The position numbers and the translations under genes are program-made. From assembly GCF_000738005.1 (NCBI RefSeq), contig NZ_JHAL01000002.1:1238634-1302633 (forward strand): a DNA stretch of 64,000 nucleotides. Direction: 5' to 3'. The notes beneath the pieces were generated by a model. It had not been told where the DNA came from. It did not search any database and saw only the letters and a list, made by a program, of their open reading frames with translations. Origin of the DNA: Bifidobacterium crudilactis. Its GTDB lineage: Bacteria > Actinomycetota > Actinomycetes > Actinomycetales > Bifidobacteriaceae. This document shows, one piece after another, positions 12,911 to 60,395 of the stretch (positions are counted from its first letter, which is position 1; every line of letters begins with the position of its first letter).

Positions 12911-13094
12911 GGTTTCTCCTTAGTGGAAGGTATCTGATACTCAGCATAACGACTCATGGCTACAGGCGACGTTGGCGTTCTCATAGAATCACAGTCATAT
13001 CTAGAGTCAGAGCATCCACCTTATCCCCGTCAAGCCGACATTCCTGGGAGAGCGGTTAAAATCGTGAGCCACACCGGATATCTGGCCGTGTAGA

Positions 13095-13167
13095 AGATAA
13101 CTGCACTAAAAGGACAGCTTTTCCGGTGAAGTATCACCAAATTGCTGTCCTTTTAGTGCAGTTATCT
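13095..13167. repeat. Nested palindrome, family A, copy 1
   Basis: Perfect 24-bp arms (13095-13118 and 13144-13167, core ATAACTGCACTAAAAGGACA) enclose a 25-bp loop. The loop contains a second small hairpin, GGTGA-AGTA-TCACC (13125-13138). It starts 25 bp after the stop of the minus-strand adhesin gene and could end that transcript, but three further copies (32.1, 34.6 and 60.2 kb) occur in other contexts. It is therefore a dispersed element and not simply a terminator. Confidence 0.9.
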
Positions 13168-13192
13168 CCGTTTAAGGCCCAGGCCGGAACAG

Positions 13193-16100
13193 CTAGACCA
13201 GGTTCGCGTCGCGTTCCGCCCGCTTGGAGAGGACATAAGGGCGGACGGCGAACACGAGCATCAGACCTCCGACGATGAGCAGGATGAGAATACCCATACC
13301 ACCCGTGTAGGGCAGGTTCGCCAGGCTCCACGCCGGGTCAAGGACCGTGACTTGCCTGCCATCCTTAGACACGTAGGCGAGGTTCGTACCCGCCGTGGCA
13401 TACGTGACCTTCGTGACCTGCGTGGCATCCTCATTCCACACGGGACGGATATCCACCGTGAAATCCGACACCCTGAAATAGCCCGACGGAGCCTTCGTCT
13501 CCTTGAAGGACAGCTCACGAGCCTCCACACCCTGCAACGACAACGTGCCGTCAGTATGCGTCGTCACGGCCTGCGTGGCACCACCCTCACCGGACACCGC
13601 CAGACGGTACACACCATCAACCACCTTCTCGAACCTCAACGGCTCCCCGTCACGGGACACCTCGAACCCCACACCACCAAGCGTCGTCGACCGGTCATCC
13701 TTATCCAGCTTCACCACATCCACCGTGAACGAATACACGTTCGCCGTGGCACTCTTGGACTCCGTGCCATCGCCGTTATCCGTCCAACCTTCAGTCGCAC
13801 TGTCCGTATAGGAGCGGGTCAGGGTCACGGCATTCACATTCGGCTTCAACGACTCCCCCTCAACAGGAGACGACACCACAGCCGACGCATTCAACACCGC
13901 CCTATAGCGGATGCGAATCAACGAATCCACAGGCACAGCATCCTGGTTCCGCACACCAGAACCACTCGACTCCGCGAATACGGCCTTCAACCCGTCCACA
14001 CTCAACGTGTCACCAGACACCGCAATCGACGAGGGCGGCAAAGTCTGCGGCTCCGTGGGCGAGAGCGCATCCACGAACACCTCAACCCCCGACCCATCGG
14101 CAGGCAACGTCAACCCCGACGCCGCCTCATCAGCCACATCGAACACATACGAGTCATACGACACATTCGACAACCCACTCAAATCAGGCACCCGAAGCGC
14201 AACCTCAAACTCCACCTCGGAGCCCACATCGAAGCCATCCATACCCGCATCGTTCACTATCCGCTTCGCAATATCCGTCACCGTGGTCTTCAACGCCGCC
14301 TGGCCCAATCGAGGCTTACCCTTCACCCCAGCGTCAGCGAAATCCACCATCCCGTCCTCGACCACGTCCTCCATCGCCTCGTTGAATACCTTCGTGCCCA
14401 CGATAATCGGCAGGGACGTGCCACTGGAATCGACAATCAGATACAAGCCAGGACCAGACACCGGCAAGGTCACGGGACTGTCAACAGGAGCGTCCAAACC
14501 ATTCAACGGCACCGGCTCAGCAGTCAATCCACTCGCATCCTCAGCCAGCGCCTGAGCAAACAACTGCAACTGACCCGCATACGGACTGAACGCCGAAGTC
14601 ACATCCTCACTAGCAGGGTCAGTCGGATACCCAAGCCACCTGGACGCCACCCAGCCAATCGGGTTATCCGCATCCACATCAGCTCCACCAGCAGTTTCAG
14701 CAGCCGTCTTCAACACCGTGCCCAAATCCTCGGGAGTATCCAAACGCACACTCTTCAACGCTCCAGTCTGCGTGAACAAAGTCTCGTCATACTCGCCGAT
14801 ACGGTATGCCGTCAACGTGCCCGAAGTCTGGCCTGTCAGTGAAATACCGAATGAGCGTGGAACATACTCTTTACCATCTTTGATGGTCACACGGTTGGCG
14901 GTTGTCGCACGATTCGACCACCCCTTCTCGGCGCTCCCATTCTCCTGACCCCAAAAATAAAAGTCCAGAACCTTGCCTGCCGGGAAAACAGAAGTGTCGA
15001 TATTCCCATCCTCGCTGAAGCCCGAAGCGAACACCGAACCATCCTCAGCAGTAGGGTCAACGGCCTTCCAACCATATCCATCTATCGAAGCGTCCTCGTC
15101 GGCATCAACCATCAACGTGCCAGGAACTGAGTCAAGCTTTGAGTCTTTCAGAGACCAATTCTCATCAGCAAATGTCAACCTCAACGAATCATCATCATCC
15201 AACACCTGAGTCTGATTCTCACTATGCGCAGACAACAACAGATTGTCCAACTTCAAACGAAAAGCCGGCCGCAACGCAGCTTCCGGCGCCATGTAGCCCG
15301 TAAACATCTCTCCTCTTGCATAAACGTTTACAGTGTAATTGGCCCCAGTGTGGTTAGCGGAGCGTAGCCACAATCTTTCGTTGCCTCCGTCAATGTTGCG
15401 ATTGGCATATTCGCTCTGAGTATCTGCGGGGGGAATGTTGAAATACACTGATATATCACCAGTCGACAACGGAAAGACCTTATAGGCATAAACCGACAGC
15501 CGTTGTGCGGTATAGCTACCAGAACCACATCCATTGGAGGAAGTGCAAACACCCTCCACACTTCTGTTGATGATGGAGTCTTTCTCGGACTGCGAGTAAT
15601 TCCTGTCTGCAACGCTGTCAGAAACCACTGCAGTATTTGACTTTCCACTGGAATAATCATAATAATTGCAGTCTTGGGAACTACAAGCCTTCCAGGGTTG
15701 GAACCGGAAGCCATTCGTGCTCATATGGTCCGCAGCCAACAACACTTCATCAGATAGCAACGATGTCGTAGCGGACTGCAAACCTACATATCCGGCATCA
15801 GGAATACTCGATATAGCACCGAGCCCCAGCGTCTTGTACCCACCAGACAATGTCAGACTGTCATAGGTCTCGCTAGAAGCCGTTTTCCCAAACATGATTC
15901 TTCTGACATTAATCCACCCATCCTGAGGCACATCAGGCGTCTCGTTGTCTTTATCAACAACAGGCATCACCTTGCCATCGCCATCGGTATCTTTCAAAGC
16001 ACTGAAATAGCCATCAGGTCCATAATCATTCGCATCAGCAACCGCTTCATGCACCGGCGTCGATACGAGTATTCCTGCAATGAGCACGAACATAGCAAAA

Positions 16101-16207
16101 GCGAAAGCAATGCAGGTCAGGAGTTTCCTCTTGTAATCGCCAGGGCGTTTTCCCTCGCTGCGCTCCAGATGACGACAACATGCAACAAACGTACGCAACC
16201 GACCCAT
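13193..16207 (-). CDS. Sortase-anchored surface adhesin (SpaA/Cna-B type, LPYTG)
   Basis: A ~1004-residue wall-anchored protein. A long basic N terminus precedes a signal or membrane segment (CIAFAFAMFVLIAGILVSTP). Next comes a region resembling DUF6273, with ERLWLRSANHTG and ALRPAFRLKLDNLLLS. A fimbrial D2-like isopeptide domain follows (about residues 640-815), then a Cna-B-like domain that carries the E-box FKETKAPSGYF. The C terminus has LPYTG (about 965-969), a hydrophobic stretch and a basic tail (RPYVLSKRAERD). No sortase and no second pilin gene are next to it, so it is either a stand-alone adhesin or served by a sortase elsewhere. The gene sits between hisC and hisB. The start is uncertain: GTG at 16222 is also possible, and a 9-G tract lies just upstream. 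Confidence 0.9.
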   Translation of the reverse strand: MGRLRTFVACCRHLERSEGKRPGDYKRKLLTCIAFAFAMFVLIAGILVSTPVHEAVADANDYGPDGYFSALKDTDGDGKVMPVVDKDNETPDVPQDGWINVRRIMFGKTASSETYDSLTLSGGYKTLGLGAISSIPDAGYVGLQSATTSLLSDEVLLAADHMSTNGFRFQPWKACSSQDCNYYDYSSGKSNTAVVSDSVADRNYSQSEKDSIINRSVEGVCTSSNGCGSGSYTAQRLSVYAYKVFPLSTGDISVYFNIPPADTQSEYANRNIDGGNERLWLRSANHTGANYTVNVYARGEMFTGYMAPEAALRPAFRLKLDNLLLSAHSENQTQVLDDDDSLRLTFADENWSLKDSKLDSVPGTLMVDADEDASIDGYGWKAVDPTAEDGSVFASGFSEDGNIDTSVFPAGKVLDFYFWGQENGSAEKGWSNRATTANRVTIKDGKEYVPRSFGISLTGQTSGTLTAYRIGEYDETLFTQTGALKSVRLDTPEDLGTVLKTAAETAGGADVDADNPIGWVASRWLGYPTDPASEDVTSAFSPYAGQLQLFAQALAEDASGLTAEPVPLNGLDAPVDSPVTLPVSGPGLYLIVDSSGTSLPIIVGTKVFNEAMEDVVEDGMVDFADAGVKGKPRLGQAALKTTVTDIAKRIVNDAGMDGFDVGSEVEFEVALRVPDLSGLSNVSYDSYVFDVADEAASGLTLPADGSGVEVFVDALSPTEPQTLPPSSIAVSGDTLSVDGLKAVFAESSGSGVRNQDAVPVDSLIRIRYRAVLNASAVVSSPVEGESLKPNVNAVTLTRSYTDSATEGWTDNGDGTESKSATANVYSFTVDVVKLDKDDRSTTLGGVGFEVSRDGEPLRFEKVVDGVYRLAVSGEGGATQAVTTHTDGTLSLQGVEARELSFKETKAPSGYFRVSDFTVDIRPVWNEDATQVTKVTYATAGTNLAYVSKDGRQVTVLDPAWSLANLPYTGGMGILILLIVGGLMLVFAVRPYVLSKRAERDANLV

Positions 16208-16222
16208 AAGAGCACCACCCAC

Positions 16223-16578
16223 CTAAGCGAAAACAGCACCCCCCCCCGCGACCGTTCTTAACCCAGCGGAACGCCTGGAATCAGCGGGAGGAACATGCGA
16301 CGAACATGATGAGTAACATCATACATGACGTTTAACTTTGCTGTGCAGATTTCATCTTTATCAGATGCACTCCACGAATTATCAAGGTCTCCTGCCAGAC
16401 CCCGACCGCACACGGGATAATTGCGAATTTCCTCTAAGACATGCAAGACCGGTGTGGTCTGCTTATCTAGAGTCGGATTATCTAGGACTGGGCGCCTATG
16501 GGGAGCCCTGCATGATGTTGAGCTGCAGAAAGCCTTATCGGCTGAGCCTTTCCTTGAAGAAGCGCAGATGAAAGCGAG
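16223..16578. other. Upstream region of the adhesin gene
   Basis: No convincing gene is seen here. Nine cytosines at 16239-16247 (nine G on the adhesin strand) lie 31-40 bp before the ATG at 16207. The remaining sequence would have to hold the adhesin promoter on the minus strand. A weak minus-strand open frame (16258-16602) has no protein-like character. Confidence 0.5.
16239..16247 (-). promoter_or_regulatory. Homopolymeric G9 tract 5' of the adhesin gene
   Basis: A run of nine identical bases directly upstream of a surface-protein gene. Such tracts change length by slipped-strand mispairing and can switch expression of surface structures. Here the tract lies outside the annotated frame (an in-frame TAG follows it), so an effect would be on transcription, on mRNA leader structure, or through an alternative upstream start. 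The role is an inference. Confidence 0.5.
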
Positions 16579-16581
16579 TTG

Positions 16582-17051
16582 ATGATGAACGGCAAACAAC
16601 ACCCTGACTCCTTGGGGTTCTTGGACTGGATGAGCCTATTCGGGTTCCTGGGTTCCGTACTGCTAGGCACAGCGTTGCCCTTTTTTCTTGGGGTCTTTGC
16701 CGTTCATCGCTTGTTCCCCTTCGCAGAACTGAACTCCTGGGTCTACGGATGGCGTGCGGCAACAGGCATTCTAGGCATTTTTTGGTCTGGTTCTTCTCCA
16801 CCTACATCACCGACCGCTTGGCGAAACTATTCAGCGATAAACGCACGCACCCCGTACTCCACGAATTCGCCGTCGAAGCGCTCAGCGTGCTCGTACTATT
16901 CGTACTCATGTACTCACTCTTTGCCGCATGGCAGACCGCGTTACTGTGCTCGGTGGTGACGTCCATTCTGACAGTGGTATTCGGGCTGATAATCAACAAC
17001 TTATTTGACCGCACTGACAGGCAAGAAGAATCGAAAGACCACACAATCTGA
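16582..17051 (+). pseudogene. Small membrane protein, frameshifted at a T6 tract
   Basis: Two overlapping frames together encode one ~155-residue membrane protein. The first frame (from 16582) carries LFGFLGSVLLGTALPFFLGVF and a second hydrophobic segment. Near 16778-16783 (TTTTTT) the reading must drop back one base to continue as FLVWFFSTYITDRLAKLFSD. Two further membrane segments then follow, down to 17051. Without the shift, the first frame yields a Ser/Pro-rich tail that looks non-coding. It may be a pseudogene, a slip-tract switch or a sequencing error. I do not recognise the family. It is transcribed divergently from the adhesin gene and may belong to the same inserted region. Confidence 0.6.
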
Positions 17052-17169
17052 TGTTGCATGGCAACAGCAAAGTTACGGAAATTCACAGCATTGGGTATTC
17101 ATTCGATGAAGATGGCAGTTACCGGGGAATGTAGCTGCAGGACAAAGCACAGCGAGGGGTTGCGTTAGA

Positions 17170-17550
17170 TTGTGAGAGGTTGCGTTACGTATTGCGACGT
17201 GTGGCAAGCGCTGCGCGCTTCTTTACAATCGCTGCAGCGATTGACTTCGCAGCCTTCGTAATCGCCGAAGCGATTACCTTCGCAGCCTTTGCGGCTGCTC
17301 ACCTCACCTAGCCGAAGCACACAGTGCTTCGGCCATAACGGTTCGGCTGCTCACCGAGCCTAAGGGATACCCACAGGGCATCCCTTCTGACGGCTCGGCC
17401 TTGGCGGGCGCTCACCTCGCCTAGCCCATGCAGGTTTCATGTGACAGTTTCCGCTTGAACCTCGTTGATTAATCGCTTTCAGCGATTCTTCGCGCCCTTG
17501 GCGGGCGCTCACTTCGCCTACGGGAAGCCCACTGGGCTTCCCGCTTAACG
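17170..17550. repeat. Modular hairpin repeat block downstream of hisC
   Basis: This gene-free stretch between the small membrane protein and hisC is packed with palindromes. Three units share a left flank GCTCACnnnnCCTA, then a hairpin with an ACA or ACT loop, then a right flank ending ACGGyTC. The stems differ completely: 17311-17333 (GCCGAAGCAC), 17362-17386 (AAGGGATACCC, one mismatch) and 17522-17542 (GGGAAGCCC). Further small hairpins of the type CAATCGC-GCGATTG and AAGCGC-GCGCTT lie between them. The same modules recur at 60257-60395. On the hisC strand the block begins directly after the stop codon. Confidence 0.85.
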
Positions 17551-17560
17551 GTTCAGAGGC

Positions 17561-18706
17561 TTAGAGACCGAGCACTTCGGTGAAGGCCTTGCGGAAGCGG
17601 GCCATCTCCTCGTCTGTACCCATGCATACGCGCAGCCAGCCTTCCGGGCCGACAACACGAATCAGCACGCCGCGGTCAAGCAGCTCCTGGAAGATGGCTT
17701 CACGATTGTCGAAGGTACCGAACAGCACGAAGTTCGACCCTGACGGAGCAACCCGAAGATTGGCGCCGTGATAACGCTGCTGAGCAAGCCATGAAGCAGT
17801 CCGTTCTCTGGTCTGCCTCAGATGCTCGACGGTACTGAGCTGCTCGTCCGTATGCTCGAAAGCCGCCAGCGCGGCGGCCTGAGTGACCGCACTCAGGTGG
17901 TAGGGCATACGCACGATACGCACCGCGTCGATGATTCCCTCGTCGGCGGCAAGATACCCTACGCGGGCTCCGGCAAAGGCGAAGGCCTTCGACATGGTCC
18001 TGCTGACCGCCAGATTCCTGTGTTTCGACACCAACGCCACAGCAGAAGGCGTACCAGGGTCACGGAACTCGATGTATGCTTCATCGACCACCAGAATCGG
18101 ATGGGCCCCTTCAGGAGCCCCGCTGACCGCGGCATGTTCGCACGCGTCGAGCAATGCTTCGATCTGCTCGTGAGGCAGCACGGTTCCCGTCGGATTGTTT
18201 GGGCTGGTCACCAGCACCATCGAGGGGCCGTACTCATTGATCGCCGCAATGGTGCCCGCGACATCCAGAGTGAAATCCTCGTTGCGATGAGCCAGCTTCC
18301 ATGTGGTGAAGGTGTCGCGAGCGTACTCGGGGTACATCGAATACGTCGGGTCGCAACCCAGCGCCGTGCGTCCAGGTCCTCCGAAGGCCTGGAACAGCTG
18401 CAGCATGATCTCATTCGAACCGTTGGCACCCCACAGCTGCTCCACGCGCAGACGTGCGCCGGATTCCTTCGCCAGATAATCGCTGAAAGCCTGTCGAAGT
18501 TCGATATGCTCCCTGTCCGGGTACCGGTTCAGCGTAGGGGCGATTTCCGCGACGCGCTTGGCGATGCTCTCCACAACGCTCGCTTCGAGCCGGTAGGGGT
18601 TCTCGTTGACGTTCAGACAGACCGGCACGTCAAGCTGCGGAGCGCCGTAAGGCTCCTCCCCCAGCAGGTCGTTGCGCAGAGGGATGCTTGCGGGGATGGC
18701 ACTCAT
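17561..18706 (-). CDS. hisC: Histidinol-phosphate aminotransferase
   Basis: A 381-residue PLP-dependent class I/II aminotransferase that converts imidazole-acetol phosphate to histidinol phosphate. The cofactor lysine lies in SRTMSKAFAFAGARVGY. The SPNNPTGT motif and the substrate-binding arginine region near the C terminus (GWLRVCMGT) are visible. Its ATG overlaps the hisD stop by four bases (18703-18706), so translation is coupled. Downstream the operon is broken: instead of hisB, the stop is followed by the modular hairpin block and the adhesin region. Confidence 0.96.
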   Translation of the reverse strand: MSAIPASIPLRNDLLGEEPYGAPQLDVPVCLNVNENPYRLEASVVESIAKRVAEIAPTLNRYPDREHIELRQAFSDYLAKESGARLRVEQLWGANGSNEIMLQLFQAFGGPGRTALGCDPTYSMYPEYARDTFTTWKLAHRNEDFTLDVAGTIAAINEYGPSMVLVTSPNNPTGTVLPHEQIEALLDACEHAAVSGAPEGAHPILVVDEAYIEFRDPGTPSAVALVSKHRNLAVSRTMSKAFAFAGARVGYLAADEGIIDAVRIVRMPYHLSAVTQAAALAAFEHTDEQLSTVEHLRQTRERTASWLAQQRYHGANLRVAPSGSNFVLFGTFDNREAIFQELLDRGVLIRVVGPEGWLRVCMGTDEEMARFRKAFTEVLGL

Positions 18707-50863: not shown

Positions 50864-50933
50864 AGACGCGGCACTCATCTGATTCGCCTGTTGACCGCGT
50901 GCTACCATATCCACTCAGAACCCGTATGGGTCC

Positions 50934-50974
50934 CCGGACGATGGTCAAGTACCCGGACAGCGACAAGACTTGCC
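50934..50974 (+). promoter_or_regulatory. Guanidine-III riboswitch
   Basis: This 41-nt stretch carries the compact guanidine-III aptamer: CCGGACGA at its 5' end, then ACCCGG (50951-50956), then GACAAGA (50962-50968), with CAAG (50946-50949) pairing with CTTG (50969-50972). This fits the two-helix pseudoknot of the class. The aptamer ends one base before GAAAGG, the ribosome-binding site of the SMR transporter gene, which suggests control of translation. I matched it by eye to the known consensus. Confidence 0.9.
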
Positions 50975-50986
50975 GAAAGGTCAGTC

Positions 50987-60152: not shown

Positions 60153-60225
60153 AGATAACTGCACTAAAAGGACAGCTTTTTGCGGGGATATTCCCTAAAT
60201 TGCTGTCCCTTTAGTGCAGTTATCT
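60153..60225. repeat. Nested palindrome, family A, copy 4
   Basis: The 24-bp arms (60153-60176 and 60202-60225) differ at one base; the 25-bp loop has an inner GGGA-TAT-TCCC hairpin. The arm sequence is the same as copy 1 but the inner stem is different and still self-complementary. It lies between the Lon-domain gene (3' end) and the DUF3052 gene (5' end), next to a modular repeat block. Confidence 0.9.
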
Positions 60226-60256
60226 AGTTTAGCGGCTCACTGAGCCTGACTTCCGG

Positions 60257-60395
60257 AAAGGTTGCGTTGCATATTACGACGTGTGGCAAGCGCTGCGCGC
60301 TTCTTCGCAATCGCCACAGCGATTGACTTCGCGCCCTTGGCGGGCGCTCACCAAGCCTACGTACAGCACACAGTGCTGTACGCTTAACGGCTCAG
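60257..60395. repeat. Modular hairpin repeat block downstream of the Lon-domain gene
   Basis: Same architecture as the block after hisC. The shared part includes GACGTGTGGCAAGCGCTGCG and the CAATCGC/GCGATTG hairpin. Then follow GCGCTCACCAAGCCTA, the hairpin CGTACAGCAC-ACA-GTGCTGTACG (60360-60382) and TTAACGGCTCAG. It overlaps the stop codon of the minus-strand gene by a few bases, so the right flank of the repeat supplies the stop region. Confidence 0.85.

Follow-up and report, generated by a model that had tools for sequence, protein, structure and literature searches.

The REP and BIME sequences that go with RAYT are short intergenic palindromes found near gene ends, in high copy number and with variable stems, and their hairpins carry a 5' GTAG or GGAG tetranucleotide. 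The BOX and Efar repeats follow a module grammar in which the number of hairpin modules varies. Integron attC sites consist of a folded single strand with conserved ends and a variable stem, the two ends bearing the complementary boxes RYYYAAC and GTTRRRY, while MITEs have a target duplication of fixed short length. Tandem inversion duplications show a direct-inverted-direct order, and fold-back template switching produces paths that turn twice. In mitochondria, the double-hairpin elements of Allomyces (DHE) and their counterparts in sponges (RHE) are, like the element considered here, short consecutive hairpins present in many scattered copies and thought to be mobile; the accessible part of PMC2800124 suggests an RNA intermediate for the Allomyces elements and describes them as having no flank duplications. 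Template switching has been reported to create, perfect and maintain hairpins, and quasi-palindrome mutations involve fold-back synthesis that leaves an inverted copy, as set out in the accessible part of PMC8794818.

The repeats described here lie in a 64,000-nt stretch of Bifidobacterium crudilactis DNA (the window), which holds four copies of a 48-nt core, three of them 3' of hisC and one over the stop codon of a Lon-domain gene (PF05362; by ORF call, the TGA at 60392-60394 is within the core). At both loci the element abuts or supplies the stop codon. A sequence-only reading had pointed to a hairpin repeat at these two places, and the repeat is real, its cores scoring 58.6 to 70.5 bits with the core model R2 (Table 1); three of the four are rows of the alignment from which R2 was built and match it by construction, unit 2 being the one that is not, and the independent tests of R2 are the genomes of relatives, not the window cores. 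The four stem hairpins reported in that reading are present, three at hisC and one at the Lon-domain gene, but the third linker, at 17410, carries module E and no private stem. The linker motif GCTCACNNNNCCTA was matched at 17297, 17349, 17410, 17507 and 60346, always on the plus strand. When one mismatch is allowed the window contains 10 matches against 3.2 expected, a number reached in none of 100 shuffles, and the whole genome of 2.36 Mb contains 36 exact matches (26 forward, 10 reverse) against five for the reversed pattern. With model R1, which describes the strand as read, 50 matches at E<=0.01 were obtained in the window genome.

Table 1. Position, strand and basis of the repeat features in the window; folding values refer to the minus strand.
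Feature	Position	Strand	Description and basis	Folding
Module A, about 52 nt	17174..17225	+	AAGCGC/GCGCTT hairpin; 19-mer common with 60285-60303; further copies in the window genome	
Two module H hairpins	17226..17283	+	CAATCGC..GCGATTG and TAATCGC..GCGATTA; direct repeat family D3; module strings	
Module B of unit 1	17282..17298		Short second hairpin GCAGCC/GGCTGC; sequence; covarying B helix	
Core hairpin, unit 1	17299..17346	-	P1 helix, internal loop, 10-bp D stem, 3-nt loop; R2 64.9 bits; alignment row	-25.2 kcal/mol, z -4.7
Core hairpin, unit 2	17351..17398	-	P1 fully Watson-Crick; R2 58.6 bits; not an alignment row	-30.2 kcal/mol, z -5.3
Third linker	17410..17423	+	No D stem, followed by a different module; pattern match, sequence	
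Module E	17424..17493	+	Holds the AATCGCTTTCAGCGATT hairpin and replaces the D stem; same module in other copies of the window genome	
Module B of unit 4	17492..17508		GCGCCC/GGGCGC; sequence; covarying B helix	
Core hairpin, unit 4	17509..17556	-	Adjoins the hisC stop codon; R2 70.5 bits; alignment row	-24.7 kcal/mol, z -4.5
Module A, Lon-domain-gene locus	60249..60308	+	Sequence, common 19-mer, module strings	
Module B, Lon-domain-gene unit	60331..60347		Sequence; covarying B helix	
Core hairpin, Lon-domain gene	60348..60395	-	R2 65.0 bits; alignment row	-24.5 kcal/mol, z -3.6; 1 of 200 shuffles folds as well

In the window genome the loci are mosaics of the hairpin modules A (AAGCGC/GCGCTT), E (AATCGCT/AGCGATT) and H (AATCGC/GCGATT) together with the short hairpin B, the linker, the 10-bp stem D and the tail. 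Parsed copies usually run (A or E)(H)-B-linker-D-tail and often stand in tandem, though some depart from this scheme, for instance by having no A, E or B; the simple rules behind these module strings miss diverged copies and returned "none" for 13 loci. The basic unit is elaborated with extra hairpin modules (A, E and H) in this genome, and the other small hairpins noticed earlier between units (CAATCGC/GCGATTG) correspond to module H. In its modular strings of hairpins the element is similar to BOX and Efar; their sequences and modules differ, and we know of neither paired flanks nor an insertion scar of the kind described below for those repeats. Its D and B hairpins are consecutive, as in the mitochondrial double-hairpin elements, from which it differs in being bacterial and in having a demonstrably shared, covarying core.

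The linker and the tail, which the sequence-only reading took for conserved flanks around private stems, pair with each other and form the basal helix, P1, of one long hairpin; moreover, they vary in register with each other, as in CTTCGCC/GGCTCAG, CCTCACC/GGTTCGG and CTGTAGC/GCTACAG. On the structured strand the basic unit of about 75 nt has the form CUGAGCC-GUUAAG-D stem-UA-GGCGAAG-UGA-second hairpin-GCGAAGG. It had also been stated that the stems have little in common, which is not the case, as the inner AGC/GCT pairs of D are largely kept (in 57, 56 and 51 of 65 cores), the outer pairs varying by two-sided change. Among 24 aligned copies, two-sided changes affect 12 of the 16 pairs of B and D, with a covariation score of 0.573 against 0.175 for shuffled alignments. 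Among 65 distinct 48-nt cores they affect 16 of the 17 pairs of P1 and D, and the score is 0.565 against 0.169 in shuffled and at most 0.105 in slid controls. Over all alignments, including that of the reverse strand, covariation amounts to 0.57-0.60 against 0.17-0.19 (shuffled) and at most 0.17 (slid). The covariation of the 65-core alignments on both strands, as well as their consensus, is based on the 68 of 93 D-bearing rows that have the standard spacing, 65 of them unique. In the stems a whole pair is replaced at a time, CG by GC or AU by CG for example, and few intermediates are seen. A GTTAAGC in the element resembles the GTTRRRY box of integron attC sites; this assignment was rejected, since only one box is present, GTTAAG facing TA with no RYYYAAC partner, and the targets are duplicated.

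Mismatches in the stems are mostly A.C on the strand as read and G.U on the opposite one. In the reverse-strand alignment of the cores (the minus strand) G.U outnumbers A.C by 41 to 14 (21:2 in P1, 20:12 in D), although its rows were gathered with R1, the model of the opposite strand, and selection by that model would push the ratio the other way. The 77 unique matches of a second set, which come from another genus, gave a ratio of 22:1; this is inflated by selection, the rows being the best matches of the same-strand model R2, in which a G.U earns more than an A.C. A single P1 pair accounts for 15 of the 41 G.U cells in the one alignment and for 10 of the 22 in the other, and the cells are not independent. 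Two central P1 positions show C.T/T.C on the strand as read and hence tandem G.A/A.G on the opposite one; this is so in 47 of 65 rows of the first alignment and 68 of 73 of the second, and all four window units fold more stably on the minus strand, by 4.5-5.9 kcal/mol. Owing to the G.U/A.C asymmetry, the tandem G.A pairs and this better folding, the minus strand is the structured strand in the window. The structure is kept up on that strand, as the covariation and the excess of G.U over A.C show, and the selection for structure suggested from the letters alone is thereby supported. Selection appears to act on the structured strand as RNA or as single-stranded DNA; either would fit, because G.T is the better tolerated mismatch in DNA too.

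Model R1 matches six of the 27 genomes of the genus, the window genome included, and one genome of another genus. A search for the flanks across the family had been proposed in the sequence-only reading; the element proved widespread there and is not confined to the two window loci, the core model R2 matching 110 of 189 Bifidobacteriaceae genomes, some of them weakly; genomes with weak matches only (E above 1e-6) may match by chance, and copy counts are lower bounds, as at most 32 candidates per genome were scored. Among 149 sampled genomes of the order, three matches to the core model were obtained, all in Bifidobacteriaceae. The internal loop CC-GUUAAG..UA-GG, the loop and the tail are common across genera, with E-values down to 1e-18. 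Plasmids and phages gave no match to 17180-17560 of the window. Rfam at the gathering score returned for the whole window only a tRNA and a guanidine-III riboswitch match (50915-50977, 52 bits), both away from the repeats, and no family was matched on 17000-17700 at E<=5. A description of the element was not found in the literature searched, which excluded subscription papers, and it is not described in the accessible parts of PMC5746004, PMC8355165, PMC2800124 and PMC8794818.

At orthologous loci the element is often common to several species while its stems differ, so that the stems at one and the same locus, a comparison called for earlier, are not identical. At the Lon-domain gene the stem is CGTACAGCAC in the window genome, TGTACAGCAC and CGCACAGCCC in G004, and CATGCAGCCC and CGTACAGCCC in G011. 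At typA, species whose insertion agrees in its B hairpin and inverted copy differ in the D stem, which is CGAACAGTCC, CGGAAAGCCC or CGGACAGTCC.

In the second set, inspection of the flanks by eye showed that the sequence before the element recurs behind it, with an inverted piece between. An exact recurrence downstream of at least 12 nt of the 5' flank ending at the element was found at 9 of 51 loci in this set and 6 of 47 in the first set; swapped flanks gave 0.1%. At 7 of the 51 there is an inverted copy that is anchored and at least 8 nt long (again 0.1% for swapped flanks), and one of at least 7 nt is present at none of the 47 loci of the first set. The direct copies differ in length and reach about 60 nt, 60 nt being the stretch examined, and some form tandem arrays; these variable lengths and the extra inverted copy led to the rejection of a MITE. 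When inverted copies of at least 6 nt with at most one mismatch were counted at the 88 of 98 loci where the element end could be placed, 11 loci had one, against 0.42% of swapped pairs, and the gap x between this copy and the element was 4, 3 and 2 nt in six, four and one cases, respectively, with 15 positions searched. Read on the structured strand the scar is T'-ELEMENT-x-T-turn-T'-rc(x), where T is the inverse of T'. The predicted T'+rc(x) was found downstream at 8 of 98 loci (8 of the 13 with P0>=5), compared with 1 of 2911 swapped pairs (16 of which have P0>=5), and at typA the prediction holds in 5 of the 11 cases with P0, among 20.

At a minority of loci, then, the footprint amounts to a direct-inverted-direct triplication in miniature. 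One of its two U-turns is occupied by the element, offset by 3-4 nt; the other, in those typA examples that were read closely, is formed by a short inverted repeat of the target. No clear inverted copy is present at 77 of the 88 loci; we take this for decay, although other modes of insertion could also lie behind it. The T'/T scar is absent at both window loci, and as none is left there, their history is deduced from the family and not read at the site. The earlier proposal of an insertion mechanism that makes fresh inverted repeats is supported by the inverted target copy that occurs beside the element elsewhere in the family; this repeat derives from the target and not from the element's own stems. 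The possibility that the second hairpin, B, is copied from the local target was rejected as well, own and other targets both scoring 5.5. Like REP/BIME sequences, the repeats are short palindromes near gene ends with many copies and variable stems; they differ in leaving a direct-inverted-direct scar. From the Allomyces elements, which are without flank duplications (accessible part of PMC2800124), they differ in that the flanks are duplicated both directly and inverted.

The clearest insertions are those at typA, a gene present in all 112 genomes of the second genus. Its end was covered for 90 of these genomes (30 by search, 60 by region), and 76 of the loci could be read, the remaining 14 being unrecognised by motif. 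Of the 22 loci with the element, 18 have at least 9 nt of the gene end in inverted copy, against 2 of the 54 without it (Fisher 1e-11), and for a direct copy of at least 12 nt the figures are 13 of 22 and 1 of 54 (Fisher 4e-8); the species are related and many insertions are shared by descent, so that there were fewer than 22 events, and the Fisher values ignore kinship. The two apparently empty loci with an inverted copy are L324, which by eye carries an element missed by the rule, and L377, which carries a remnant, as do L373 and L375 among the 54. Two genomes, G087 and G088, share 98.5% of 779 aligned bases at typA, and an insertion of 122 nt sets them apart. The filled site, in G088, contains, besides the element, a fold-back copy and the gene end for a second time, whereas the bare site of G087 has a short inverted repeat, AACAACGC..GCGTTGTT, where the fold lies; the usual T-tract terminator is still present behind the insert. 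This pair shows gain or loss of the element at one site between two near-identical genomes, and with the footprints it provides the mark of mobility attributed to double-hairpin elements. A search of six genomes for a donor with stems identical to those of the one clear insertion, at typA, found none, G087 giving no match at all. Tandem double insertions occur at typA in L388, L364, L368 and L380. It is also worth mentioning that the two copies in L388 have the same D stem and different second hairpins, as if module B had been exchanged as a block.

The filled typA site, with a whole element that is absent from the empty target, bears directly on the idea that there is no mobile element at all and that hairpins at gene ends arose independently and were perfected by quasi-palindrome correction alone. 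Template switching does make and maintain hairpins (accessible part of PMC8794818), but the internal loop, loop and tail common across genera contradict this explanation, which is highly improbable. The element resembles quasi-palindrome mutations and tandem inversion duplications in its fold-back signature, and differs from both in that one of the turns takes up a specific element of 75 nt, with a nearly fixed offset and at many loci.

Taken as a whole, the repeats probably represent a mobile element of the Bifidobacteriaceae, a short non-coding hairpin that is inserted by fold-back template switching. A 3' end at a fold-prone site, often a gene end, would fold back and switch template, and the element hairpin would be taken up at the turn of the fold-back; the path would turn twice, at the element and then at a short inverted repeat of the target, giving the direct-inverted-direct triplication. 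Template switching between the arms of the hairpin would rewrite both sides of a stem in one step, which fits the stems changing in pairs with few intermediates. The enzymology of insertion is unproven, fold-back template switching being favoured. The orientation of the element relative to replication is without bias (73 to 58, p 0.22), a rough control in which the origin was assumed at base 1 and which covers the matches listed for 14 of 16 genomes (G079 and G109 not included), tandem neighbours having been dropped in some genomes only. If this reading is right, there is a widespread bifidobacterial repeat whose structure changes in pairs and whose insertion scar can be read to the base, and it offers a natural system for how RNA stems change on both sides without broken intermediates. 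The typA gene and other gene ends would be the places to look for insertion between strains.

A constant offset of 3-4 nt is unexpected of random template switching and hints at an enzyme; the constant element ends and the nearly constant offset both speak against a purely accidental process, and an enzyme may be involved. It may be, although we put this forward tentatively, that a folded single strand bridges both strands of a site staggered by 3-4 nt and turns synthesis back, a second fold-back restoring the direction; to our knowledge such a route is not known for any transposon. Each insertion would then write a direct-inverted-direct micro-triplication and make a new hairpin from the end of the host gene while leaving the gene intact, and the element could spread safely through 3' ends across a whole bacterial family. 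Alternatively, a DNA enzyme might move the folded single strand and join it across a staggered break, the hairpin capping a 3-4 nt overhang and replication copying the capped end. The offset of 3-4 nt in 10 of 11 cases, with 15 positions searched, and the constant ends speak for this, and a strand-specific structure is expected of single-strand transposition, but the flank duplications vary in length, unlike those of known single-strand transposons, no Y1 transposase (PF01797) is present in the window genome and no candidate protein was identified, making such a transposition unlikely. An assignment to REP/RAYT was rejected: the single genome examined, that of the window, lacks PF01797 while 5 of 14 control genomes are positive, and no GTAG or GGAG is found 5' of the hairpin, the D stem being preceded in the consensus by GTNAAG and followed by TAGG.

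The structured strand looks like RNA, and the inserted strand runs between the complements of the two RNA ends, beginning with that of the 3' end and stopping at that of the 5' end, as would be the case for a SINE-like retroposon, in which a structured-strand RNA (5' CUGAGCC, 3' GCGAAGG) is reverse transcribed end to end with template jumping. Reverse transcriptases of PF00078 were found in only 14 of 189 family genomes, and the window genome and the copy-rich G180 and G142 are not among these; most element-bearing genomes are therefore without an RT detectable with PF00078, and the enzyme was rejected as an explanation for being too rare. A past or divergent RT may lie behind the retroposon reading, which we consider very unlikely.

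In the first set, whose orthologues were collapsed by a 60% rule into 46 groups, 25 of 37 locus groups have a tail-side gene that reads into the element (p 0.047) and 17 of 34 have such a gene on the other side, the neighbour being at least 100 aa long in these 37 and 34 groups. In the second set (g32) divergent genes flank only 4 of 81 clusters, and in 11 of 52 the stop codon of the gene upstream on the structured strand falls inside the element; the 81 clusters come from 76 loci picked among the best matches, not at random, and the gene calls around loci are simple ORF picks rather than annotation. Co-directional loci of this set are divided into 30 sense and 25 antisense, and the bias towards gene ends exceeds that towards one orientation.

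These positions, together with a G.U bias that is strongest where only the structured strand is transcribed (25:2), are what would be seen if the repeats were resident 3' UTR elements that protect or end transcripts, or slow ribosomes at stop codons, mobility being secondary; transcripts of B. breve UCC2003, too, often end at GC-rich stem-loops without a consensus, according to the accessible part of PMC5746004. The orientation is mixed, however, R1 has no match in 21 of 27 genomes of the genus, the T-tract terminator persists downstream in the filled typA allele, and the G.U bias has the same direction where only the other strand is transcribed (11:5; p 0.08 for the difference). Moreover, no T-run follows the D hairpin on either strand. 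A resident 3' UTR element is thus quite unlikely as the primary explanation. The hairpins of the four window units are stable (z -3.6 to -5.3 on the minus strand), as those of Rho-independent terminators are, but this class was rejected, as D is followed in the consensus of the 65-core alignments by TAGGCGA(A/G)G or, on the other strand, by CTTNACGG. There is room for an RNA role of the mobile element in 3' UTRs, although a function for the host is unproven, and some of the B. breve transcripts that end at stem-loops lacking a consensus (accessible part of PMC5746004) may owe their ends to the element.

Six relatives (G011, G004, G018, G015, G005 and G012) have hisB close behind hisC with no element between, hisB having been identified by its translation in G011 and by a similar start in the other five, and the named relatives resemble them in this arrangement. 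Among 28 named hisC neighbourhoods the core is present in one, that of B. hapali. In the window the his operon is split, the hairpin array and a gene for a pilin-like surface protein with a SpaA domain lying between hisC and hisB (12911-17560); the array borders the hisC side and another palindrome the hisB side.

Hairpin arrays often have a second palindromic repeat as their direct neighbour, GATAACTGCACTAAAAGGACAGC followed after about 25 nt by its inverse; it occurs in the window at 60153-60225 and about 13096-13166, and near L032, L033, L037, L038 and L044. In the copy-rich genome G180 (L259-L275) GTCATCCTGAGC is often found before the element and GAAGGATCCTT after it, which resembles a compound with another repeat. 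Three genomes of 1.5-1.7 Mb (G126, G173 and G175) have 13-20 weak core-model matches each, the best with E of about 4e-6, which represent a diverged relative or chance. Several genomes contain a longer subfamily of about 200 nt, in which a conserved outer helix and a GCAAAATC..GATTTTGC hairpin surround the core (L236, L240, L241, L244, L245, L296, L297, L299, L302, L304 and L306), and more than one copy of it is present in G151.
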